Positions 3,556 to 17,027 of a stretch of 20,669 nt of DNA are shown piece after piece (positions within the stretch are counted from its first letter, which is position 1; every line of letters starts with the position of its first letter). The DNA is from Clostridia bacterium (GTDB lineage: Bacteria; Bacillota_A; Clostridia; Oscillospirales; CAG-272): positions 1 through 20,669 of the forward strand of contig JAFZCF010000133.1 of the NCBI GenBank assembly GCA_017552165.1. The letters run 5' to 3'. A program made the position numbers and the translations under genes. The notes under the pieces were generated by a model. That model did no database searches, was not told the origin of the DNA, and saw only the letters and a program-made list of their open reading frames with translations.

Positions 3556-5316
3556 ATGGACAAAATCAAAAACAGAAAAATTATTTCGATAATTCTCTCC
3601 GTCGCGGCGATCATCGTTGCGGCCGTCGTCGCCGCGTCGTGCAGCGGCGGCGGAGAAGCCGGACAGATTTCGGGAACTCCCATGGTTTCCGATACCGCCG
3701 AAACTCCGTCGGGACCGGTCACGCTCACAGGATGGTTTGACTACGGCACCGCGCTTTATCTCAGAGACAAATACAAACCCGGCGACAAGCAGAGCATCGA
3801 GATACAGATGGCAAAGAACGAAAAAGAAGGCTTTGAGTTCGTCCTGTTCTCGAGCGGCGACATCGAAAAAGTCAGATGCACGGTTGATGCTCTGTCCGAC
3901 GGAAACGGACACGAGCTGAACGGCACGGTCTTCGTCGCCTGGCATATCGACGTAAAAAAGCCTGCCGGGATTGTGCGTTCCAAGGGCTTTACGCCCGATC
4001 CGCTCCTCGATCAGGACAACCCGTATCAGGGCGATTCATTTGACCTTATCGCCAAAAGGGCAAAAACTCTTTACGTGCAGTACGTCACCGACGCAGACAC
4101 GGTCCCGGGGACCTATACCGGCACGCTCAGGATCGTTCACGACGGCGAGGAAATGCTCTCCGGAAGCGTCACCGTAAAGGTCCGCGACGTTTATTATGAC
4201 GAAAAGACCGAGGCGGCCGGGCTTTACCAGTACGGCTTTGCAAGATATGACACCGGAGCCGGCGGCACCGGACCGGATTCCGCCCCGGATATGGACACCG
4301 GTCACTATTCACAGTTCGTAGGAATTGAAGTTAACGAGGCCGAGCGGTTCGCTCTCCAGCAGAAATACGCGGATTATCTGCTAGACAACAGAATGAGCCC
4401 CTGGCACCTTCCGATAAAAGACGCCCTCCTGAATGAAGATCAGGAGCTTGTCAGTAAGTATATGGACAATCCGCGGCTCTCGTACACCACGATTCCGAAC
4501 GATCCCGACCTCAAAAAGCAGTACGAGGCGGCGGAAGCCAACGGCTGGCTCGACAAATGCTGCATACTGTATTACGATGAGCCGGATACCCCGGAAAAGT
4601 ACTCCACAGCAGAGAGCATAGGCAGGCAGTTCCAGGCGAAATTCCCTTCGGACAACATGATCTGCCCGTTCAGCCTCGCTTTTACCAATTCGATCAGGGA
4701 CATGCAGCCATCGATGATAGAGCGTATGAGCCAGTTCTCGAAACTTCACGCGCCGAACGCGTACACCGTCATGCTCGTCGAGGGCACCTATAATACCCTT
4801 ATGCAGCTCAAAAAGGAGCGCGGCGACGTTATTCTGTGGTATGAGGCAGGATACGAACCGAACGAATACGTTTACGTTCCGCACATATATACGTCAGTCC
4901 CGGGAGTTGAAAAAAGGATCATTTTCTGGCAGCAGTACCTGATGGACATCGACGGATTCCTTTATTACCAGACGACTATGTGGAACCGCGTCGCGGATGT
5001 CTGGGACAGAGAATACGAAGACACCGAACACCCGGCGAGACCCGGCATGGACATAGCCGAGGGCGGCGGCGTGCTCATGTACTGGGACCCCGTGACCGGT
5101 GATCCCATCGGCTCGCTATCACTCGAATCCGTCAGGGACGGTATAGAGGATTTCCAGCTCATGAAAATGGCGGAGAAGATCATCGGTCGCGACGGCGTTA
5201 TGGAATACGTCAACCGCATAACGACCGGATTGTACGACTACACCCGCGACCCGGACGTCCTCGAACAGGTCAAATGCGAACTCTTCGACGTCGTTGAAGG
5301 CGCGGCGAATCAGTAA
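3556..5316 (+). CDS. Predicted lipoprotein, DUF4091/GH123-like
   Basis: 586 residues. The N-terminus has a basic head, a hydrophobic stretch (about 9-27) and Cys29 in the context VAASC followed by Ser/Gly, a plausible lipobox; the protein is probably anchored outside the membrane. The next about 200 residues look like beta-sandwich modules. The C-terminal two thirds look like the catalytic barrel of the DUF4091/GH123 group, ending in the hallmark LESVRDGIEDFQLM with DPVTGDPIGSLS just before. ILYYDEPD places Asp341-Glu342 where GH123 beta-N-acetylgalactosaminidases carry their Asp-Glu pair for substrate-assisted catalysis. Binding or hydrolysis of an N-acetylhexosamine glycan is therefore possible but unproven. 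It has its own promoter and terminator, with no sugar-transport genes beside it in this window. Confidence 0.82.
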   Translation: MDKIKNRKIISIILSVAAIIVAAVVAASCSGGGEAGQISGTPMVSDTAETPSGPVTLTGWFDYGTALYLRDKYKPGDKQSIEIQMAKNEKEGFEFVLFSSGDIEKVRCTVDALSDGNGHELNGTVFVAWHIDVKKPAGIVRSKGFTPDPLLDQDNPYQGDSFDLIAKRAKTLYVQYVTDADTVPGTYTGTLRIVHDGEEMLSGSVTVKVRDVYYDEKTEAAGLYQYGFARYDTGAGGTGPDSAPDMDTGHYSQFVGIEVNEAERFALQQKYADYLLDNRMSPWHLPIKDALLNEDQELVSKYMDNPRLSYTTIPNDPDLKKQYEAAEANGWLDKCCILYYDEPDTPEKYSTAESIGRQFQAKFPSDNMICPFSLAFTNSIRDMQPSMIERMSQFSKLHAPNAYTVMLVEGTYNTLMQLKKERGDVILWYEAGYEPNEYVYVPHIYTSVPGVEKRIIFWQQYLMDIDGFLYYQTTMWNRVADVWDREYEDTEHPARPGMDIAEGGGVLMYWDPVTGDPIGSLSLESVRDGIEDFQLMKMAEKIIGRDGVMEYVNRITTGLYDYTRDPDVLEQVKCELFDVVEGAANQ

Positions 5317-6150: not shown

Positions 6151-8934
6151 TCACCTGTCCTCGTCTTTTTTTCTTTTTCTCTCGCCGGAAATGAATTTTG
6201 CGATCTCACAGACCGTAAATATCAGTACGGGCACGATGAGAACGCCGGGCAGAGCCGCCGCCTGTATCCCGGAAATCCCGAACGCCGCGCCGATACCCGG
6301 CACTATGAACGAAACGGCAAAGAACAGAGCGACGAACAGTATCAGGGCAAGATGAGCGCCGTTGAACCTGACGTCTCCGCCGAAATATCCCCTGTCGAGC
6401 TTGTATTCAAGAAGCACGGTCAGCTGAGAAACCGCGAAAATCAGGAACGTACAGGTGTAAACCGAAACCGAAGAGATTATTTTGAATCTGACCATCAGAT
6501 AGATCACGGCGACGGTCAGCGCCGCCCAGAGAACGCCGCAGAAAATCGCCATCGGGTTTTTGCCTATCGGGTGCCGCAGTCTCTCCCTGTCTACGTCGGA
6601 TTCGAGGAGTCTGTACGACGGCTTTTCAAACGCTATGACTATCAGCGCGAGAAAATCGATTATCAGTCCGCAGAAAAGCACCTGAGGCGGGGTCAGCATG
6701 GTAAAGCGGGAAATTACCGACGCGAGGACGATGAATATCTTTGCAAACTGGCTCGACAGCATGTATTTGATCATGCGGTGAAGGTTGCGGTATATCGACT
6801 TTCCGCATAGGACAGCGTCGACCATCGCGTTGAAACCGCCCGTTCCTGTCTTAAGGTCCGGATCCGAAACTATAACGTCGGAGACGAATTTAAGCGCGTC
6901 GCAGCCCGTCTCCCTCGTCTGACTGGAGTTTCTCGCGTTGAGCGCGATTCCGCTGACCTCGACCGTGCCGATCGCGCTGTCGGAGATTGTCACGCTGTGA
7001 GAAAAGCCGATATCCGCGTCGCGCATCAGGATAATCTCGTCGAGTTCGGAGCACATAAAGCCGACCTTTTCGCCGTTTTCCTGGAGATATTTCACAAGCT
7101 GGCGCTTCTGATATACCGACAGGCCGACGTACACCGAATAAAGGCCCGCGTTTGCCCGGAACAGGGCGTCCTTGCTGCCTTTCAGCTCCGCCGATGTCGC
7201 GACCTCGGACGCCGACGTCGCAATACCGAGCGAAGCGGCGAAGCTGAGATTGCTCTCGTCATCTTCGTCGCACAGCATGATCACCTTGATCCCCGCGGCG
7301 CGGCAGCGCGAAATGTTCTTCGCCGCGTCGGGAAGCACCGACTCTTTGATGGCTATCATGCCCTCGAGAGTCAGATCGGTCTGGCTGGCCGAAATGCGCG
7401 TCAGATTGTTATACGTCGTGTCCTTTGACGCGATTGCTATCACGCGGTAGGACATCTTGGTAAGCTCGCGCGCCGTCGAGACGAGGGACTCCATTTTTTC
7501 GTCGTCCATGTCGTAGACCCTGCCGTTTTCGCAAAAATATCTGCATCTCGGAAGGACCTTGACGTATTCTCCCCTGATCGCCGCGACAAAGCCGTTGCCG
7601 TACCTTACGAGCGAGGTATCGAAGATCGATTCCCTGCCCCTTGAAATATGCTCGAGGAGCGGATAGTTCTCTTCAAGTTTGACGTTATACTCGCCTATAT
7701 CGCGCGAGGCGTTGATGATGCACTCCTCCTCGGAGGTATTGACGTTGTCGCGCGTCTGGTTTTTTCGGGAAAGGCGGTCGGAGCCGTAAAGCCCCGTCGA
7801 TAGCAGAGCGTATCTGAGGACCCTCGAGGCGTTTCTCCTGTATCCGTGATCCTCGGGTTTGAAAACGTCGTCGTTTGCGTAGACGTATCCGATCTGCGTT
7901 TCGCTCGCGCAGAAACCGTGCTTTTTAGGGACGATCAGGCACGTCAGATTTCTGAGAGTATTAAGACGCGACGTCGAGTTGACGAGCGCTCCGCGGTTCA
8001 CGTCCCCCTTTCTGCTTACCGCGGCGTAAACGCCGCACGCGAGGGAAATATACGCAAACGCGAGATAGAACTCGCTCATCGAGGCGACTGCCGAGGAAAC
8101 TCCGAGCAGGAAGGTGTCGAAGATGCCTCCCGTCCCCCTGCCGAAAATGACGTCTACGGCCGTCAGAACGAATATCCAGACCGTCATGAAGATGGTCCAT
8201 TTTTTGCAGAAATCGTTGACCGAGACAAAAACGTCGTCCTGTTCGTCGCGGAACGGCGGCTTGCCGCCGTTTTTGCGTCTTATCGCCGTGTCGGCACCTA
8301 TGTCGCAGCATATCGCTTTGCCGGTGCCGTGAGTCACGACGGTCGAGGCGAACGCCATGTTTCTGCGTTCAGACTCGGGTATATCGTGAAAATCGACGAA
8401 CTTAGCGTCTTTTCTCGACGCGGTGGTCACGCCGGTCACGGCCGCCTCGAGTATCTCGAGTCCGCTGCTTTCGCACAGTCTCGCGTCGCAGGGTATAATG
8501 TCGCCCGTCGCTATGAGGAAAACGTCTCCGCGGACCATTTCCCGCTGGTGGATGACCGAGAGCTTTCCGCTCCTTATCACCCTGACGGAGGGGAGACCCT
8601 GCTCGCTCACGTTTTTGAGAACGCGCTCCGAACGGATGTACGACGCTATGACGATTATATAATACGTCACGAGCACGCCGATCATGACAAAAAGATTTTT
8701 ACGCTCGTCAAAGACCGCTGCGATGAGCAGCGTGACGAGCATCAGGATCGAGGTGTAATCGAAAATAATGTGCCTCAGATAACCGCCGAATTTGCGGGAG
8801 CCGCCGTAAACGTCGTTCTCCCCGTCCTCCGATCTGCGTTTTCTGATCTCCTTTTCGTCGAGCCCGTGCGTGACGTCGGTCTTAAGGGCTACCTCGACCT
8901 GCTTTATGCTTTTGTCATACCATTTTTCTGCCAT
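6151..8934 (-). CDS. Degenerate P-type ATPase homologue (pseudo-ATPase), 927 aa
   Basis: The domain order is that of a P2A cation pump: a cation-ATPase N-terminal segment (residues 5-40), M1-M2 (about 58-100), actuator domain, M3-M4, phosphorylation and nucleotide domains, then M5-M10. M6 keeps LIIDFLALIVIAFEKP. The catalytic motifs are substituted without a frame break. TGES is TGVT (167-170). PEGL in M4 is SEFY (287-290), keeping the Glu. DKTGT is PKKHG, with Pro336 at the phosphorylated Asp. KGA is RGE (454-456), DPPR is AIKE (528-531), TGD is CDE (555-557) and GDGVND is CSELDE (628-633). ATP-driven pumping by the known mechanism looks impossible. A regulatory, scaffold or ion-sensing role is inference. 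No clear Shine-Dalgarno precedes the ATG, so translation may depend on clpE upstream. Confidence 0.85.
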   Translation of the reverse strand: MAEKWYDKSIKQVEVALKTDVTHGLDEKEIRKRRSEDGENDVYGGSRKFGGYLRHIIFDYTSILMLVTLLIAAVFDERKNLFVMIGVLVTYYIIVIASYIRSERVLKNVSEQGLPSVRVIRSGKLSVIHQREMVRGDVFLIATGDIIPCDARLCESSGLEILEAAVTGVTTASRKDAKFVDFHDIPESERRNMAFASTVVTHGTGKAICCDIGADTAIRRKNGGKPPFRDEQDDVFVSVNDFCKKWTIFMTVWIFVLTAVDVIFGRGTGGIFDTFLLGVSSAVASMSEFYLAFAYISLACGVYAAVSRKGDVNRGALVNSTSRLNTLRNLTCLIVPKKHGFCASETQIGYVYANDDVFKPEDHGYRRNASRVLRYALLSTGLYGSDRLSRKNQTRDNVNTSEEECIINASRDIGEYNVKLEENYPLLEHISRGRESIFDTSLVRYGNGFVAAIRGEYVKVLPRCRYFCENGRVYDMDDEKMESLVSTARELTKMSYRVIAIASKDTTYNNLTRISASQTDLTLEGMIAIKESVLPDAAKNISRCRAAGIKVIMLCDEDDESNLSFAASLGIATSASEVATSAELKGSKDALFRANAGLYSVYVGLSVYQKRQLVKYLQENGEKVGFMCSELDEIILMRDADIGFSHSVTISDSAIGTVEVSGIALNARNSSQTRETGCDALKFVSDVIVSDPDLKTGTGGFNAMVDAVLCGKSIYRNLHRMIKYMLSSQFAKIFIVLASVISRFTMLTPPQVLFCGLIIDFLALIVIAFEKPSYRLLESDVDRERLRHPIGKNPMAIFCGVLWAALTVAVIYLMVRFKIISSVSVYTCTFLIFAVSQLTVLLEYKLDRGYFGGDVRFNGAHLALILFVALFFAVSFIVPGIGAAFGISGIQAAALPGVLIVPVLIFTVCEIAKFISGERKRKKDEDR

Positions 8935-8956: not shown

Positions 8957-11281
8957 TCAGATTTTCTGAAACGAAAGCGTGCCGTCCTTTACAGTCACGT
9001 AAATACCGGCCACTCCCGGATCGTCGAATAAGATATCCGCTATCCTGTCCTCTACGTTTCTTTCGATATAGCGGCGCATATTGCGCGCGCCGAGTTTGTC
9101 GCTGAAAGAGTTTTCGGCGATATAATCTTTGACCGCGTCGTCATACTTCAGGAATATCTTCTTTTCCGACATGGCGGCGGAGAGCTGTCCGAGCATTATG
9201 CCGGCGATCCCTGCGAAGTTTTCTCTCGACAGGCGGTTGAAGGTTATTATCTCGTCGACCCTGTTAATGAACTCCGGGCGGAGGAACGAGGAGAGACCCT
9301 TCTCGGTTCTTGCGGCGTCGCCGTCGGCGCTCGAGGCGCCGAAGCCGAGCACGGAGCCAGACACGTTCGCTCCGGCGTTCGTCGTCATTACGATGATCGT
9401 GTTCTCAAAATTGACCGTCCTGCCCTGAGCGTCGGTGATTCTGCCGTCGTCGAGTATCTGAAGAAGGATGTTCAGCACGTCGGGGTGCGCCTTCTCGATC
9501 TCGTCGAAAAGCACGACCGAATACGGCTTACGGCGGATCTTTTCGGTCAGCTGTCCCGCCTCATCGTATCCGACGTATCCCGGAGGGGCGCCGATTATAC
9601 GCGAAACGGCGAACTTTTCCATGAACTCCGACATATCGAGCCGTATGAGCATCTCGGGAGAATCGAACAGAGACTCGGCGAGGACCTTGACGAGCTCGGT
9701 CTTGCCGACCCCCGTCGGCCCAGCGAAGATGAACGATACCGGCTTTCTCTTTGCCGACACGCCCGCGCGATTGCGCTTGACGGCGCGAACCACGGCGTCT
9801 ACCGCCTGATCCTGCCCCACTATGCGGGATTTTATGTTTTCCTCGAGCCGTCTGAGCTTTTCGGAATCGCCCTCTACGATGTTGCTGGCGGGAATACCCG
9901 TCCATATCTCGATGACGTCGGCGAGATCCTTTTCAGTCAGCTCGACCTTATCGGTCTCGGCCTTGAGCTCGTCGAGCTCGGCGCCGAGACGCAGGCAGTT
10001 GGATTTCAGCTCGGCGAGCTCCCTGAAATATCCCTCGGAGTCTTCTCCAGCCGGCTGAGACTCATGGGACTTGAGATCGGCGTCCGCCTTTTCAAGCTCC
10101 TTCTTCTTTTCCTGGTATTTCGCAAAAGCGCCGGAGCGCAGCGAAACGGCGGAAAGCGCCTCGTCGAGCAGGTCTATCGCCTTGTCGGGAAGGAACCTGT
10201 CGGTTATATATCTCTCGGAAAGGATGACCGTCTTTCTGAGCACCTCGTCGCTGACCTTTATGCCGTGGAAATCTACGTAGTATTTGCCGATACCTTTGAG
10301 AATGCCGATACAGTCGTTTACCGACGGCTCGTCTATCATCACGGGCTGGAATCGCCGCTCGAGGGCAGCGTCCTTTTCTATGTATTTGCGGTATTCGTTG
10401 AGAGTGGTCGCGCCTATGACCTGAATTTCTCCGCGCGAGAGCGCCGGCTTGAGGATGTTCGAGGCGTTCATCGACCCCTCGGCGTCGCCTGCCGACGCTA
10501 TGGTGTGCACCTCGTCGATGACGAGGATGATATTGCCGAGATTTTTGACCTCCTCGATGAGGTCCTTCATGCGTTTTTCAAACTGTCCCCTGAACTGCGT
10601 GCCGGCGACGATCGCCGTCATGTCAAGCAGATGGATCTCCTTGCCGGCGAGCTTGTAGGGCACGTCGCCGCGCGCTATCTTGAGAGCGAGCGCCTCGGCT
10701 ATCGCCGTCTTGCCGACGCCCGGCTCGCCTATGAGACACGGGTTGTTTTTCTGTCTGCGGCAGAGTATCTGCATGACGCGGCTGAGCTCGCGCTCCCTGC
10801 CTATCACGTCGTCTATCCCGCCGTGAGCCGCTCTGTAAGTCAGATCCGTGCAGTACGTATTGAGATTTTTCTTTTTGGGATTTTGCTTTCCCTGCCCGTT
10901 TTTATCCGTCCCGCCGGCATTTTTGGACGTCCCGCCCTGCTGCGGCGCCGGCCCGAGCCCGAGCTGGCTGAAAAGTTTTCCGAGGTTGAAGAACGGCGCC
11001 CTGCCGTTTGAAAGCCCCTCGCCGGTCGACTCCTCGACGGGATCGGAACTCTCTTCATCGGGGAACTGATCCTCCGCTTCGCTGAGACTCTGTATTTCGT
11101 TCGAGAGCGTCTCCATCGCGTCCTCGGGAAGGCCGAGGTTCTTCATAATGTTGTTGAGGTTAAAAAAATTGAGTTCCGTTGCGCATTGACGGCAGAAGCC
11201 ATCCGTCTGAGTCACGCCGTTTACCGTACGGTTGATGAATATTTCGGCGGGCCTCGTCTTGCACCTTACGCACATTTGCAT
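8957..11281 (-). CDS. clpE: Clp ATPase with N-terminal zinc finger (ClpE-like)
   Basis: Hsp100 unfoldase expected to feed proteins to ClpP or to disaggregate them in the cytoplasm. The 774 residues start with a CxxC-x22-CxxC zinc finger (Cys4, 7, 30, 33), the ClpE hallmark, in place of the ClpC/ClpA N-domain. A Ser/Gly/Asn/Lys-rich linker (about 70-140) follows. AAA module 1 has Walker A GEPGVGKT (185-192), Walker B VIDE (254-257) and Arg309-Arg310. A coiled-coil middle segment (about 385-445) precedes AAA module 2, with GPTGVGKT (521-528) and LFDE (591-594). LGF at 645-647 sits where ClpP-docking tripeptides occur. A good site, CGGAGA, precedes the ATG. No separate CtsR-type operator or promoter fits in the 18-nt gap after cvpA. 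Confidence 0.9.
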
Positions 11282-11299: not shown

Positions 11300-12073
11300 T
11301 CAGAAAAGACCTACGTGTCTGACTATGAAAGTTTTTTCTATTATATCGGTCGGGATCGACTCGATGAGCCCCGAAAGAGGAGGCACGAGCCGGCACGCCG
11401 CGAAGCAGAATATGAAGGCGAGCAGTATCCCTTTAATAAGTCCCACTATCGCGCCGAGCAGGCGGTTGATGCCGCTGAGCGGCGCGGTGCTGAAAATCAC
11501 GTCAAAGAGCTTGATGACTATCAGAGCGAGCAAAAGCGTAGCGACAAACAGGATAATTACCGCGACTCCCTTTGAGATCTTTGTCGAGAGCGGATCCGCT
11601 AGCTCTTCCGCGGCTCCTTTAAGTGCGTCCCCGGTCTTGTCCTTTATCTTTCCGAGAAGCTCGTCGACCGAGCTGCCGAGCCGCTCAAACAGCGCTGAGA
11701 AAGTCGCGCCGCCGTTTGTCAGAGCGTCGAGGAAACTGTCGCTCTTTTCGGCTTCTTCGCTTTTTTCGGTCTCCTCGGAGCCGCTTTTTTCCTCTCCCTC
11801 CGTCGGCTGGGTTTCGGTGCCCTCCGTCTCCTCTGGCACGATCTTTTCGATCAGCTCGATGATCTTTTCGTTTACGCCTTCGTTGACGAATTTTTCGTTC
11901 AGCCATACGGCGAGCCGGTCCGAAAACGTCATTGAAACGAAAACGGCGGCAACAACGGCAAAAAGAAACGCGAGCGACTTAAAAAACCCCCGTTTTATCC
12001 CGGTTATAAGACTTATGACGATTATCAGGACGGCTATCCCGTCGAGTATCAGAGAAGGTATCGAAAATTCCAT
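11300..12073 (-). CDS. CvpA family membrane protein with acidic linker
   Basis: 257 residues, four predicted membrane segments (about 8-26, 32-50, 160-185, 200-222) and the family-like GIKRGFFKSLAF after the first helix. CvpA was named for colicin V production; in Bacillota its exact role is uncertain and generally linked to the envelope. Between helices 2 and 3 is a soluble insert with a strongly acidic, low-complexity stretch of Glu, Thr, Ser and Lys (residues 81-112), followed by a Gly/Asp/Lys amphipathic segment. The ATG at 12073 is chosen because AAGGGG lies 5 nt before it; a longer in-frame reading to 12130 would run well into the preceding gene. The start is 2 nt after the DUF5711 stop, so translation is probably coupled. 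Confidence 0.85.
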   Translation of the reverse strand: MEFSIPSLILDGIAVLIIVISLITGIKRGFFKSLAFLFAVVAAVFVSMTFSDRLAVWLNEKFVNEGVNEKIIELIEKIVPEETEGTETQPTEGEEKSGSEETEKSEEAEKSDSFLDALTNGGATFSALFERLGSSVDELLGKIKDKTGDALKGAAEELADPLSTKISKGVAVIILFVATLLLALIVIKLFDVIFSTAPLSGINRLLGAIVGLIKGILLAFIFCFAACRLVPPLSGLIESIPTDIIEKTFIVRHVGLF

Positions 12074-12075
12074 TA

Positions 12076-13674
12076 TTACCCCTTGTTCTGTTCCTTGAAA
12101 TCGAGTGGAAGCGCGCTTCCGGTATAGCACACGAACGGCTCACCGTTCGAGGCGAAGACAAGATCAAGCGCGGTCGGCAATATTTCGGCGCGATAAGTCT
12201 TTCCGGTCGACGGATCGATCTTCAGCGCGAACTCCTGGAACATTATAAGAACGCACCCGTCGTTCGAGGCGATCTTTATGAGCTCGCCGCTCTCGTTTAC
12301 GCGGATCGTTTCCTTGCCTCTCGTATCGAAGACCCTGATCTCCTTTTCGTCGCCGACAACGCCGGCGTTGCAGGTCAGACATATAAGATTGTTCGCCGCG
12401 TACGCCCTGACGAGGTTCTGTGTGACGGGAAGGACCTCGTTGAGCTTGATCCCATCGTCGCCGTAAACTATTATCCTGTCTGTGTACACGACGGCAAAAC
12501 CGCCGCCGTTCATGCATTTGACGATCATCGGCACGACGCTGTCGACCGTTATCGTGATGTCCTCTGTGCCGCTTTCGATGTCGACGACGGTGATCTCTGT
12601 GCTGTAATCTCCGTCAAGATCGTAAAGCGCGGCCGTATAGAGCTTCTTTCCGTCCGGGGACAAATCGACCGAAACGGTATATTTGTCCTTCCTTATCTCG
12701 AGACAGTTCCGCAGATCCCTGTCAAAAACGCATATTATCGACTTGTAGTTCTCGTCTCTCGTCACGAGGACGTAGCTTCCCTCGTCGCAGATGGTCCCGC
12801 ACGTTATCGGATTTGACATCGTCTTCTGGGAAAGCGCGGTAAAACTGTTATAGACCGTGTAGCCGTAGCTTGTGTTTCCCGAATCGTATACGAGGAAATA
12901 TTTGGATCCCGCGACGAGTGCCGGGGAATAATACTCGTTTTCGAGATAGAACGCCCTGGCGCCCGAACCCTTGTAAAGAGACGTTGAGCCGGGATTCACG
13001 ACCACAAGGTCGCCGCGATAGACCGCGAACAGAGCGTCAAGACCGCCGCTGTAATACATCGACTCGAAGGACCCGGTGTTGAGACTCGAAAAGTCTATGT
13101 CTTTTAACAGATACTTGAAATTGTCGGTGGTTATCGACGAGCCGAAAACCGCGAGCATTGTAAAGGCAAAAGCCGCAGCGAGCACCATCGATATGAGTTT
13201 GAGGACGGTATATTTTTTCGCGAACGAGGTGAAATATCTGTTTTCGGTATAGATATTCTCGGGGTCGAACCGTATCCGGTCCATCCTGACCGACTGCCGC
13301 TCGCGCCGCTCGGCGCGCCTGCGCCGTTCGGCCTTTTCATCCCTTTCGTCTTCAGTCAGGGATTCCTCACGGCGTATCGCCTTTTCGCGCTTTTTTTCTT
13401 TTTTGGCGGCCTTTTTCTTTGAGCTTTCGTCCTCCTCCGCATCGATGTCCGCGGCGGGCTCAACGTCGGAGTTCTTGACGTACGTCGTGAGCTTCTCGGG
13501 CGAGGTCTTTATCGAGAAGCCGCCGCCCTGAGGGACGTACTCCGTACCCTTTGAAACGTGTTTTTCCTTTCCTTCGGGATCGGAGGACGACGAAAGCGGC
13601 GCGTCCGGGTCGTTGCCGACCGTTTCGAACGTCGTCGTATCGAATATCAATACCTTTTTCGATTCGTCGCCCAT
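12076..13674 (-). CDS. DUF5711 family single-pass membrane protein
   Basis: 532 residues of unknown function. A cytoplasmic N-terminal region of about 150 residues is rich in Lys, Glu and Arg (79-135, probably disordered or coiled coil). One membrane helix (about 156-177) follows, then an extracytoplasmic domain of about 350 residues with repeated short beta-strand patterns such as LVVVNPG, YFLVYDSG, YVLVTRD, LSPDGKKLYTAAL and IIVYGDDG. These look like blades of a beta-propeller. This is the layout of the DUF5711 family, which is found in clostridia beside cvpA, as here. The ribosome binding site AAAGGATCC lies before the ATG. The extracytoplasmic domain could bind wall or protein partners; no enzymatic motif is visible. 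Confidence 0.82.
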   Translation of the reverse strand: MGDESKKVLIFDTTTFETVGNDPDAPLSSSSDPEGKEKHVSKGTEYVPQGGGFSIKTSPEKLTTYVKNSDVEPAADIDAEEDESSKKKAAKKEKKREKAIRREESLTEDERDEKAERRRRAERRERQSVRMDRIRFDPENIYTENRYFTSFAKKYTVLKLISMVLAAAFAFTMLAVFGSSITTDNFKYLLKDIDFSSLNTGSFESMYYSGGLDALFAVYRGDLVVVNPGSTSLYKGSGARAFYLENEYYSPALVAGSKYFLVYDSGNTSYGYTVYNSFTALSQKTMSNPITCGTICDEGSYVLVTRDENYKSIICVFDRDLRNCLEIRKDKYTVSVDLSPDGKKLYTAALYDLDGDYSTEITVVDIESGTEDITITVDSVVPMIVKCMNGGGFAVVYTDRIIVYGDDGIKLNEVLPVTQNLVRAYAANNLICLTCNAGVVGDEKEIRVFDTRGKETIRVNESGELIKIASNDGCVLIMFQEFALKIDPSTGKTYRAEILPTALDLVFASNGEPFVCYTGSALPLDFKEQNKG

Positions 13675-13691: not shown

Positions 13692-14423
13692 TCAGTAATA
13701 GACCTCGGCGAGGTACAGGCCGTCCGGCGGCGCCGTTATGCCGGCGGCGGTACGGTCTCCCGTTTCGAGAAGTTTTCTTATATCGTCGTCCGTCAGTTTT
13801 CCCTGAGACACGTAGACCAGAGTGCCGACGATTATACGCACCATGTTGTAAAGAAATCCGTTGCCGTACACGTCGACGGTCACGGCGCCGCCCTCCCGGC
13901 GGACTTTTATGTCAAAAATCGTTCTGACAGTCGATTTTACCGCGGCGCCTGCGGCGCAGAACGCGGCGAAATCGTGCTCTCCGACAAGGATCTGCGCGCT
14001 TTCGTTCATTAAGTCAACGTCAAGGGGCGTATGTATCTGCCACGCCCTGCCGCGCAGAAGCGGATCTCTCAGACGCGAGTCGCTTATCAGATATCTGTAA
14101 TGCTTTCCCTTTGCGTCGTATCTCGGATGGAAACCGCCGGGCGCGACGGACGCGTCCGTCACCGCGATATCCTCCGGAAGGAGCGAGTTCATAGCCAAAG
14201 GCAGTTTGTCGGCCGGTACGCTCCCCGACACGGTCTCTATCGAAGCGACGAAACCGGTCGCGTGGACGCCCGCGTCGATACGGGAGCAGCCAGTAACGGA
14301 GCACTCCCCGAAAAGGGTCTCCGCCGCCTTCGTCAGTTCGCCCTGCACGGTCCTGCGGCCCGGCTGAAACTGATATCCGCTGAAATCTCTCCCGTCGAAG
14401 GCGACGCGTATCCTGTACTTCAA
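13692..14423 (-). CDS. truA: tRNA pseudouridine synthase A
   Basis: Converts uridines 38-40 of the tRNA anticodon stem-loop to pseudouridine. The 243 residues carry the TruA signature CSRIDAGVHATG with catalytic Asp50 (most TruA have RTDAGVHA, so Thr is Ile here). Also present are YDAKGKHYRYLI, FAAFCAAGA and the C-terminal FLYNMVRIIVG. The only usable start is TTG at 14423-14421. An in-frame TGA, the stop of ecfT, lies one codon upstream, and no ATG or GTG gives the conserved KYRIRVAFDG start. Initiation may be weak and coupled to ecfT termination, since the gap is 3 nt and the nearest purine run (GGGG) is about 10 nt away. Confidence 0.94.
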   Translation of the reverse strand: MKYRIRVAFDGRDFSGYQFQPGRRTVQGELTKAAETLFGECSVTGCSRIDAGVHATGFVASIETVSGSVPADKLPLAMNSLLPEDIAVTDASVAPGGFHPRYDAKGKHYRYLISDSRLRDPLLRGRAWQIHTPLDVDLMNESAQILVGEHDFAAFCAAGAAVKSTVRTIFDIKVRREGGAVTVDVYGNGFLYNMVRIIVGTLVYVSQGKLTDDDIRKLLETGDRTAAGITAPPDGLYLAEVYY

Positions 14424-14426
14424 CGC

Positions 14427-15269
14427 TCAGTACCCCATCATCCCGATACCGGCAAGCGCCGGAGGAACGTAAACGTTGAGCAGAACGACGGCGGCTATCA
14501 CGGCGGCAAAAACGAGGAGCGAAAGCCAGTCCGTGACCTTAGGGGAGATATCCTTCATCCTCGTTCTTCCCTTCGATCCGTGATAACAGCGGCATTCCAT
14601 CGCCGTGCTCAGGTCTATCGCGTGTCTGATCGACGACGAAAACAGCGGGATGATTACGGGAATCAGCGCCTTTGCACGCTTTAACAGATTGCCTGATTCA
14701 AAATCCGCGCCCCTGGATTTCTGCGCGCTGATTATCCTGTCCGTCTCCTCGATAAGCGTGGGAATGAACCTCAGGGCTATCGACATCATCATAGAGAAGA
14801 CGTGAACGTCGACCCTGAAGAGTCTGAGCGGTTTCATCAGCTCCTCGAGCCCATCCGTGAGCATTATCGGCGAGGTTGTATAGGTTAGAATCACCGAGCT
14901 CCCGGCGAGCAGGCATATTATCCTGACGTCCGTTAGCAGCGCGTTTACCACGCCTTCACGGTATATATGGATGATCTTCCATTCAAGGAGAAGGTTGTCG
15001 CCCTTGACGAAAAACACGCTGTAAAGCGTCGTGAAAATCAGAATGAAGATAAGCGGCTTTATGCTTTTGAGTATTATCCCGAACGGGACCCCGGAAACAG
15101 CTATAAAAGCCGCCGTGGCCGCTAGGATGAAAACGAAGGAGAGAAGCGAACGGCATAGGAACACCGCGACGAGGAACATGACCGTCCCGATGATCTTGAC
15201 CGTCGGATTCATTTTGTGAAGGACGGACGTCCCCGGGAAATACTGGCCGAGAGTTATATCCTTAAGCAT
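14427..15269 (-). CDS. ecfT: ECF transporter transmembrane component EcfT
   Basis: Membrane coupling subunit of an energy-coupling factor importer, linking the two ATPases to exchangeable substrate-binding S components for vitamins, cobalt or nickel. The 280 residues have about five hydrophobic segments and the two EcfT coupling-helix signatures: AQKSRGADF and AMECRCYHG, the latter a variant of the Ala-Arg-Gly box. The ATG overlaps the last 8 nt of ecfA2 and is preceded by GGAGG. No S-component gene is in this window, which fits group II ECF systems whose S components are scattered and share this module. Confidence 0.93.
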   Translation of the reverse strand: MLKDITLGQYFPGTSVLHKMNPTVKIIGTVMFLVAVFLCRSLLSFVFILAATAAFIAVSGVPFGIILKSIKPLIFILIFTTLYSVFFVKGDNLLLEWKIIHIYREGVVNALLTDVRIICLLAGSSVILTYTTSPIMLTDGLEELMKPLRLFRVDVHVFSMMMSIALRFIPTLIEETDRIISAQKSRGADFESGNLLKRAKALIPVIIPLFSSSIRHAIDLSTAMECRCYHGSKGRTRMKDISPKVTDWLSLLVFAAVIAAVVLLNVYVPPALAGIGMMGY

Positions 15270-16128
15270 CGCGGCCTCCGTCGGGGAAAAGCCCCGAAAT
15301 CTCGCGAGCCGCCTTTACAACGTTGTAGACGGTGTCGTCGACAGGAACTCCGCGCTCCCTTATCCTGCGCATAACGCGGGTTATCTGCGGAACGTCAAGT
15401 CCGACCCTGCGAAGACCATCGGCATCCGAGAATATCCTCCCCGGGGCGTCGCTCGCGACGACCTTGCCGTGATCCATTACCGAGATTACGTCGGAATATT
15501 CCGCCATGTCCTCCATGCTGTGGCTGACGATTATAACGTTCGCGCCGCGCTGCCTCTGATACCGCCTCACGCCGCCGAGTATATCGGCGCGGCCGGCGGG
15601 ATCGAGGCCCGCGGCCGGCTCGTCGAGGATCAGCACCTCGGGTTCCATCGCCATTATTCCCGCTATTGCGACGCGCCTCTTCTGCCCGCCGGAAAGATCA
15701 AAGGGCGAGACCGTGAGGACGTCGTCTCCGAGCCCCACAAACCTGAGCGCGCGCCGTACGCGGTCGTTTATTTCCCCGGCGCCGAGACCCATGTTTTTCG
15801 GGCCGAACGAAACGTCGGCAAGGACAGTCTCCTCAAAAAGCTGATATTCAGGATACTGGAAAACGAGGCCGACCCTGAATCTCAGCGCGCGGCGATCCGC
15901 GCCCTTTTCGTTGACGTCCCGCCCGTCGATGAGCACCTTGCCCTCCGTCGGGACGAGAAGTCCGTTGAGGAGCTGGACGAGCGTCGATTTTCCGCAGCCG
16001 GTGTGCCCTATCAGGCCGTTTATTCTGTTGTCTTCGAAAACCGCGTTGACGTTGTCCAGCGCGAGCTTTTCAAACGGCGTCCCTTTCCCGTATACGTACG
16101 AGACGCCGATAAGCTCAATCTTTGCCAT
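15262..16128 (-). CDS. ecfA2: ECF transporter ATPase EcfA2
   Basis: ABC-type ATPase, one half of the heterodimer powering group II ECF vitamin transporters at the inner face of the membrane. The 288 residues show Walker A GHTGCGKST, Q-loop FQYPEYQLF, signature LSGGQKRR, Walker B VLILDEPAAGLD and H-loop VSHSM, then the extended C-terminal domain typical of EcfA proteins. The FQYPE and DEPAAGLD forms are those of EcfA2. The ribosome binding site AAGGA overlaps the ecfA1 stop codon, and the gap is 8 nt. Confidence 0.94.
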   Translation of the reverse strand: MAKIELIGVSYVYGKGTPFEKLALDNVNAVFEDNRINGLIGHTGCGKSTLVQLLNGLLVPTEGKVLIDGRDVNEKGADRRALRFRVGLVFQYPEYQLFEETVLADVSFGPKNMGLGAGEINDRVRRALRFVGLGDDVLTVSPFDLSGGQKRRVAIAGIMAMEPEVLILDEPAAGLDPAGRADILGGVRRYQRQRGANVIIVSHSMEDMAEYSDVISVMDHGKVVASDAPGRIFSDADGLRRVGLDVPQITRVMRRIRERGVPVDDTVYNVVKAAREISGLFPDGGRDA

Positions 16129-16136
16129 GTGAATCC

Positions 16137-17027
16137 TTAATCCGGTCCGTATGACCGGTATTTTTTGTTATTCAGCGCGTCGCACACTGCGTCCGCGCCC
16201 TCGTCGGGATCTATGACGTCCGACGGGACGTCAAGGCCCTGTTTTCTCAGCAGGTGGCAGAGCTCGGTGACCTGAGGGACGTCGAGCCCTATGCCGCGGA
16301 GCTTTTCGACGTTAGAAAACACTTCCCTCGGCGCGCCGTCGAGGACGAACCTGCCTCCGTCGATGACGAGCACCCTGTCGGCTGCTACCGCCTCTTCCAT
16401 GTTGTGGGTGATATGTATTATGGTGATGCCCTTCTCCTTGTTGAGCCGGGTGACGGTATCCATGATATCGCGCCTTCCCTGCGGGTCGAGCATCGCCGTT
16501 GATTCGTCGAGAACGATGCATTCCGGCTCCATCGCAAGTATCCCGGCGACGGCTATCCTCTGCTTCTGCCCTCCCGAGAGCTGATGCGTCGAGTGGCTGG
16601 CAAACTCCGTCATCCCGACGGTCCTCAGCGCCTCGTCGACCCTGACGCGTATCTCCGCCGGATCGATACCTATGTTCTCGGGTCCGAAGGCGACGTCCTC
16701 CTCGACGATCGTCGTGACGAGCTGGTCGTCCGGATCCTGAAACACCATGCCGATCTTTTTTCTGACGGAAATGATCTCATCCTCGGACATGTCGGGGGAT
16801 GAAACGTCGGTCCCGTCGACCGTCACAGTTCCCGAGGTCGGGCTGAGGACGGAGTTGAGGAGCTTTGCAAACGTGGATTTGCCCGATCCGTTGCGCCCGA
16901 GGACGCAAACGAACGATCCCTTTTCGATATCGAGCGTCACGTCCTTAAGCACGTACGCCGCGTCGTCCTTTTCAGCGGCCTTTGCGTCGTATGAGAAAGA
17001 GAGATTTTTTACGGAAATAAAAGCCAT
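16137..17027 (-). CDS. ecfA1: ECF transporter ATPase EcfA1
   Basis: Partner ATPase of EcfA2. The 296 residues show Walker A GRNGSGKST, Q-loop FQDPDDQLV, signature LSGGQKQR, H-loop ITHNM and a Walker B reading IVLDESTAMLD. DEST in place of DEPT is characteristic of EcfA1 in Bacillota. The C-terminal regulatory extension has LDVPQVTEL, closely echoed by LDVPQITRV in EcfA2. Gene order ecfA1-ecfA2-ecfT-truA is the classic Bacillota block, but here the flanks are a methyltransferase and DUF5711 rather than ribosomal protein genes. Confidence 0.94.
   Translation of the reverse strand: MAFISVKNLSFSYDAKAAEKDDAAYVLKDVTLDIEKGSFVCVLGRNGSGKSTFAKLLNSVLSPTSGTVTVDGTDVSSPDMSEDEIISVRKKIGMVFQDPDDQLVTTIVEEDVAFGPENIGIDPAEIRVRVDEALRTVGMTEFASHSTHQLSGGQKQRIAVAGILAMEPECIVLDESTAMLDPQGRRDIMDTVTRLNKEKGITIIHITHNMEEAVAADRVLVIDGGRFVLDGAPREVFSNVEKLRGIGLDVPQVTELCHLLRKQGLDVPSDVIDPDEGADAVCDALNNKKYRSYGPD

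Follow-up and report, generated by a model that had tools for sequence, protein, structure and literature searches.

The window analysed here is a stretch of 20,669 nucleotides from a Clostridia bacterium (contig JAFZCF010000133.1 of assembly GCA_017552165.1), which carries on its minus strand a single open reading frame of 927 codons for a homologue of P-type ATPases. The position, strand and length of this frame were given correctly in a preliminary description of the window, and a reading error or frameshift is ruled out because other genomes have this frame open as well. The analyses below show the encoded protein, hereafter the pseudo-pump, to be an old pseudoenzyme: its catalytic motifs were lost throughout its clade, it is under purifying selection, its fold is kept, and its gene lies directly after clpE. 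The features of the gene are the following.

6151-8934, minus strand: pseudo-P-type ATPase of 927 amino acids with A, P and N domains and helices M1-M10 (Pfam, AlphaFold model)
8425-8436, minus strand: TGVT (residues 167-170) instead of TGES (motif alignment)
8065-8076, minus strand: SEFY (287-290) in M4 instead of PEGL, with the Glu retained and the Pro gone
7915-7929, minus strand: PKKHG (336-340) instead of DKTGT, the phosphoacceptor Asp being replaced by Pro
7567-7575, minus strand: RGE (454-456) in the N domain instead of KGA (motif alignment)
7333-7344, minus strand: ESVL (531-534) instead of DPPR (motif alignment)
7264-7272, minus strand: CDE (555-557) instead of TGD (motif alignment)
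7036-7053, minus strand: CSELDE (628-633) instead of GDGVND (motif alignment)
6835-7002, minus strand: P-domain segment with ~34 extra residues (about residues 645-700) and GTGGF at its end (alignment)
6739-6741, minus strand: K732 in M5, where Ca pumps have a Glu ligand (alignment)
6655-6657, minus strand: D760 in M6, a retained acid (alignment)

P-type ATPases are defined by a phosphorylated Asp. When 65 family rows (the window protein and its relatives) were aligned with 29 intact pumps, the phosphoacceptor column held Pro in 64 family rows and His in one, against Asp in all 29 pumps; with Pro instead of Asp, no aspartyl phosphate is possible. The Glu of TGES, present in 29/29 pumps, is retained in 5/65 family rows and is Val in the window. 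The M4 Glu (E288 in the window) was found in 65/65 rows, while the M4 Pro is gone in 64/65 and replaced by Ser in 63/65. The Lys of KGA appeared as Arg in 65/65 (RG in 65/65), followed by Asp or Glu as third residue in 62/65, and the Asp of DPPR as Glu in 63/65. The first Asp of GDGVND is present in 0/65 rows, and its second acid is Glu or Asp in 63/65. The replacement residues are often themselves conserved across the 65 rows of the window's clade, which is unlike the picture of a decaying gene. The substitutions TGVT, SEFY, PKKHG, RGE, CDE and CSELDE thus stand as first described, whereas DPPR aligns with ESVL and not with the directly preceding AIKE. As the phosphoacceptor Asp, the TGES Glu, GDGVND and TGD are all missing from a protein in which the A, P and N domains and M1-M10 are present, the window protein is very probably dead as a P-type pump.

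The same loss extends to more distant orthologues. A table of 119 dead rows, from which L090 and the orthologues of L002, L003 and L005 (duplicate loci) were left out, has Pro at the phosphoacceptor position in 89 rows and Asp in five. The three orthologues of the duplicate loci, read separately, contain no DKTG; the clpE-linked L090 carries a DKTG string inside its P-domain insertion, and its aligned catalytic site reads HKDGV. In six distant orthologues PF00122 is retained, and the HAD hydrolase family is not matched even at a limit of E 0.1.

The preliminary description had proposed a complete P2A-like architecture in one frame, and both the Pfam families and the predicted fold agree with it. 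In the Pfam search, PF00122, PF00690 and PF00689 scored above the cut-off and PF00702 (HAD) and PF13246 under it. A comparison with SERCA, also proposed there, was made with an AlphaFold model (predicted local distance difference test, pLDDT, 86), and the closest structures were SPCA1 and SERCA, mostly in E1 states. The top sequence match in the PDB was LMCA1 (6zhh, E 4.8e-38), and the best of 17 NCBIfam models was TIGR01522 (PMR1-type), scoring 169.8 bits where the cut-off is 798.3. The window protein shares with P2A Ca2+-ATPases (SERCA, SPCA/PMR1 and LMCA1 lmo0841) the fold over nearly the whole length, the M4 Glu and the M6 Asp; it differs from them in the replaced catalytic motifs, in Lys or Arg for the M5 Glu, in Gly for the M6 Asn, and in the extra P-domain segment. 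The segment at residues 640-706 comprises 67 residues in the window protein versus 32-33 in 16 intact pumps, and the pLDDT falls to 58-73 mid-way through the extra part. The insertion as a hallmark of every dead pump is ruled out, since 17/119 dead rows have the segment at intact-pump length (32-33 residues) and the rest a longer one; the extra residues are, judging from the alignment, a derived trait gained in the window's clade.

From a database of 5.8 billion protein sequences, scoring was limited to the 7995 candidates with the most words in common with the query; 64 of them proved to be relatives at 32-92% identity and at least 482 bits, after which the score falls to 178 bits, where intact pumps start. 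DKTG was found in 0/64 of these close relatives, and the motif loss is therefore far beyond chance. Among the next 56 matches listed, 54 carry DKTGT; the other two are P0071, whose branch, next to the dead group, is very long, and P0085, which reads GKTGT at the site and has several other motifs intact. With a distant orthologue as the query, a second search added 26 relatives without DKTG, and the next three matches had it. Source names were found for 5 of the 64 relatives, which are called cation-transporting P-type or Ca2+-transporting ATPases; such pump-type names are misleading for these proteins.

In a quick unrooted tree of 48 rows, with three long branches flagged, 21 intact pumps were split from 27 dead rows by one branch with a support of 100. 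The idea that relatives without the DKTGT Asp form one clade holds as regards this split; that catalysis was lost a single time is, without a root, not proven by sequence alone, and the shared gene position described below argues for one lineage. The ratio of nonsynonymous to synonymous substitution rates (dN/dS) was 0.042 (NG86) and 0.051 (YN00) for L002/L003, which are 95.5% identical, and 0.072-0.094 in three distant-clade pairs at 91-93% identity. Intact pumps gave 0.021-0.032 by YN00 and 0.035-0.181 by NG86. The close pairs of the pseudo-pump thus lie at 0.04-0.09, and not near 1 as in a pseudogene; the estimate for the window itself rests on the pair window/L001, in which dS is saturated at 2.9. 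Recent decay is ruled out by these values, by the 64 relatives without DKTG and by the tree. Neither of the two signs of decay named in the preliminary description, nearest neighbours with DKTGT and a dN/dS near 1, was seen, and its central proposal of a non-pumping pseudo-enzyme under selection is borne out by the close-pair values and by the separation from intact pumps on the tree.

The five genome hits with names were all Clostridia metagenome-assembled genomes, three of which mention ruminant gut in their titles (buffalo rumen, roe deer rectum and water deer colon). Genomes were further drawn around G002, the genome of L002, at the levels of family, order and class. In the GTDB family, 73/196 genomes match at 367 bits or more, mostly over the full length; motifs were read in the fetched loci only, and a few matches are fragments or contain an internal stop. 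One or two internal stop codons occur in G342, G464, G331, G377, G306 and G330, by assembly error or true loss. In the order, 8/295 genomes reach at least 448 bits over the full length and others hold more distant orthologues. Among 291 genomes of the class, searched at E 1e-100, only G002 itself gave a full-length relative; in 33 others the match reached the threshold but did not extend beyond residue 658, and the 11 of these that were fetched carry DKTGT.

Upstream of the pseudo-pump, the window contains the following genes, of which truA, ecfT, ecfA2 and ecfA1 bear names that we presume from the appearance of their sequences and not from a family search.

8957-11281, minus strand: clpE-type AAA+ unfoldase gene, 22 bp upstream of the pseudo-pump (open reading frame, Pfam, conserved neighbour)
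11300-12130, minus strand: CvpA family membrane protein (Pfam, conserved in the cluster)
12076-13674, minus strand: DUF5711 protein (Pfam, conserved in the cluster)
13692-17027, minus strand: truA, ecfT, ecfA2 and ecfA1, the conserved upstream part of the cluster (open reading frames, cluster annotation)

Forty stretches around pseudo-pumps were picked by hand and annotated with the proteins of the window; in three of these stretches the genomes of L002, L003 and L005 are sampled a second time. The recurring order was ecfA1, ecfA2, ecfT, truA, DUF5711, cvpA, clpE and pseudo-pump, apart from individual members that went undetected or fell beyond the end of the stretch in some cases. Where the stretch includes clpE, as in 39 of the 40, this gene immediately precedes the pseudo-pump and shares its strand; the 40th stretch starts at the pseudo-pump gene itself. 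The gap between the two genes has a median of 20 bp and is at most 60 bp in 32 of the 39 loci, and the adjacency extends to orthologues that are no more than 23-26% identical to the window protein. Of the 295 genomes of the order, 288 have a match to clpE at E 1e-150. Starting from clpE, a P-type homologue was found directly 3' on the same strand in 16 of 40 loci and none of the 16 has DKTG; these loci were picked by hand where the flank allowed, so that 16/40 is no estimate of prevalence. If a clpE-linked pseudo-P-type ATPase is defined as a P-type homologue without DKTGT at the site that immediately follows clpE on its 3' side in the same orientation, the window and 55 fetched stretches (39 + 16) contain one, and DKTGT was found at the aligned site in none of the 55. 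The earlier link to clpE, murI and cvpA thus holds for clpE and cvpA, which belong to the conserved cluster, but not for murI, which adjoins the pseudo-pump in the window only; with 0 matches among the open reading frames of 85 annotated stretches, some of which have short flanks, murI is ruled out as a member of the conserved unit. No minus-strand terminator-like site was found between clpE and the pseudo-pump; the counts of promoter-like and terminator-like sites were 5 and 17, versus 4.6 and 11.7 in shuffled sequences.

On a quick tree of 80 ClpE proteins, built with a one-matrix model, the presence of the pseudo-pump needs 4 changes versus 20.2 with shuffled labels. Sixteen operons without it make up one side of the tree, and seven others (L126, L129, L135, L137, L140, L142 and L152) stand among 57 carriers. 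This distribution fits one main recruitment with a few later losses, as far as such a tree can tell, and loss on the non-carrier side would fit too. In L126, a 945-residue open reading frame follows clpE in place of the pseudo-pump; a crude count of hydropathy gives it no membrane helices. The clpE link might reflect inherited gene order only, the partner being elsewhere in the cell. Operons that lack the pseudo-pump still keep most of the ecf-truA-DUF5711-cvpA-clpE block, so that conservation of order is general there; nevertheless, clpE stays directly upstream in every evaluable locus, even where the pseudo-pump is as little as 23% identical to the window protein, and we consider this explanation unlikely.

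The cation site offers a further alternative, namely an ion sensor or passive ion path in which pumping was lost and a cation still bound at the M4 Glu and M6 Asp would be reported or leaked. Both acids are kept, as the preliminary description had noted, E288 in 65/65 rows and D760 in all 64 window-clade rows with a residue there, and M5-M6 is among the better conserved parts of the protein (mean 0.72). Nevertheless, the Ca ligand set of P2A pumps is incomplete in the window. At the M5 Glu position, which corresponds to the SERCA Ca ligand E771, Lys or Arg is found in 64/64 window-clade rows with a residue there; the M5 Asn is changed to Gln in 62/65 rows and the M6 Asn ligand to Gly in 63/65, the window included in both, and the M4 Pro is lost as described above. 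Over 118 rows (P0061, truncated with gaps at M5 and M6, was left out), the M5 base and the M6 acid are both present in 100 and both absent in 18, without exception, and these 18 rows without the M6 acid are distant orthologues. Ion sensing through the two acids, suggested in the preliminary description, is weakened by these replacements, and we find it distinctly improbable. As M5 base and M6 acid occur only together or not at all, an internal salt bridge is suggested, and a buried M5-M6 pair seems likelier than an ion site. A built-in M5 base near an acidic M6 residue is also known from pumps that are active with DKTGT, namely R655 of AHA2 and K791 of the H,K-ATPase. We read the M5 base of the pseudo-pump, by analogy with these proton pumps, as a tethered positive charge that may replace the cation and lock the membrane core; unlike the pseudo-pump, the proton pumps and the H,K-ATPase are active.

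Based on these observations, we propose that recruitment or loss of catalysis took place once, in one order of Clostridia, and was probably followed by mostly vertical inheritance. Pro at the phosphoacceptor position and the altered N-domain pocket would prevent the phosphoenzyme and hence pumping, so that the protein may rest in one E1-like shape. An ion pair of the buried M5 Lys or Arg with the M6 Asp (and the M4 Glu), at the former place of the cation, would fix the membrane part, and the large cytosolic A/N/P surface on its ten-helix anchor could be offered to a partner protein encoded in this operon. A role as scaffold or regulator, rather than any other, is probable. iRhoms and pseudokinases are pseudoenzymes that turned scaffold or regulator; they resemble the pseudo-pump in a fold kept under purifying selection while catalysis was lost by substitution. 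Gene order makes ClpE, CvpA or the DUF5711 protein the likeliest partner, an assignment we hold tentatively and somewhat short of an even chance. If ClpE is the partner, the pseudo-pump might serve as its membrane anchor or substrate adaptor; alternatively, CvpA and DUF5711 might form an envelope assembly serviced by ClpE. Taken as a whole, the explanation of a dead pump recruited as a membrane scaffold or regulator beside ClpE, with the M5-M6 pair fixing the membrane part, seems to us evenly balanced between right and wrong. It is attractive to speculate, though rather doubtful, that this dead class, recruited once beside clpE, supplies the dedicated membrane subunit to an assembly of ClpE, CvpA and DUF5711, its M5-M6-frozen fold providing a platform for the AAA+ unfoldase in envelope protein quality control.

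Several observations weigh against this explanation as a whole. As many as 24 of the 40 clpE loci lack an adjacent pseudo-pump, often while retaining CvpA and DUF5711, so that the pseudo-pump is at most accessory; adjacency can also be inherited without function. The M5/M6 concordance comes down to three changes each on the tree and is hence not significant. The five dead rows with Asp at the phosphoacceptor position, out of 119, read DREGA, DKEVA, DNSRY or DDSRY, all without KTGT and without GDGVND or TGD, and one of them, L095, retains TGE too; L089, a nearer orthologue, still passes the Pfam HAD cut-off (29.3 vs 26.4). A midpoint drawing of the 48-row tree places four distant-clade rows (4/27 dead) with the intact pumps at a support of 99, and dN/dS is higher in distant pairs with large dS (0.182 for L004/L005 and 0.122 for window/L001). 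By Z score, a CaE2P state of SPCA1 is nearly as close to the model as the E1 states (34.1, though with a root-mean-square deviation of 9.3), and a single AlphaFold state says little about protein dynamics. The pseudo-pump also diverges fast, with a mean pairwise identity over 45 operons of 0.24 versus 0.61 for ClpE (0.57 for EcfT, 0.47 for TruA and 0.24 for DUF5711). Its distances gave partial rank correlations of 0.48 with DUF5711, 0.33 with TruA, 0.20 with ClpE and -0.11 with EcfT, and clpE was not singled out as a partner by this test in the 45 operons. The divergence rate of the pseudo-pump resembles that of the DUF5711 protein.

The pseudo-pump could instead be a dominant regulator of the intact P2 pumps of its genome, acting by pairing or by competition for a partner. 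The fold is the same, and intact P-type ATPases besides the pseudo-pump were present in 5/5 genomes searched for PF00122; against this, none of 79 evaluable loci has an intact pump on the clpE strand in the 400 bp that follow clpE (L163 has one on the opposite strand), and we regard such a role as quite improbable. An ATP-driven transporter working by unusual chemistry is a far less probable alternative, modelled on the claim for mammalian ERMA/TMEM94, which is described in PMC13322241. There, ERMA is presented as a transporter of the endoplasmic reticulum with a degenerate P-type ATPase head and reported ATP-dependent Mg2+ movement, despite DKQGI and GSSANL, no TGES and a lost GDGVND. The window protein shares with it the P-type architecture and the absence of GDGVND and TGES; unlike the window protein, the eukaryotic ERMA retains the Asp in DKQGI and has a GMN motif of its own, and its D427N mutation abolishes uptake according to the same paper, while Pro or, in a single row, His occupies the position in our family. 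That the gene is a decaying pump on its way out is scarcely credible, even with some operons lacking it and internal stops in some copies (G342, G464, G331 and G377), as it is contradicted by the close-pair dN/dS, by open frames of ~900 residues at 23-26% identity to the window protein, and by the conserved replacement residues.

No dead bacterial P-type ATPase was found in the literature searched, which covered few subscription papers, nor any paper there on a pseudo-, inactive or degenerate P-type ATPase or on a P-type ATPase as a pseudoenzyme, and novelty is claimed only against that literature. One paper, which deals with Acinetobacter, mentions DUF5711. Since a large group of bacteria lacks the Asp and keeps a ten-helix, three-domain protein, this fold can be selected for non-pumping use; the conserved site of the gene after clpE provides concrete candidate partners, and the natural variants of the protein offer material on the possible locking of a pump core by an M5-M6 charge pair.

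Some minor observations were made along the way. The DUF5711 protein (window 12076-13674, minus strand) diverges as fast as the pseudo-pump, though both sit among slower genes. The proteins of L098, L099, L089, L096, L097 and L143 are extended at the C terminus by 75-237 residues, and many of these tails are acidic; no Pfam family was found at E 0.01 in the tails of the first five, and those of L098 and L099 have in common the stretch ADREFLGIGYLFS, a possible binding motif. At 3556-5316 on the plus strand, the window also encodes a putative lipoprotein, with a signal-like start containing Cys and a match to the GH123 catalytic domain.
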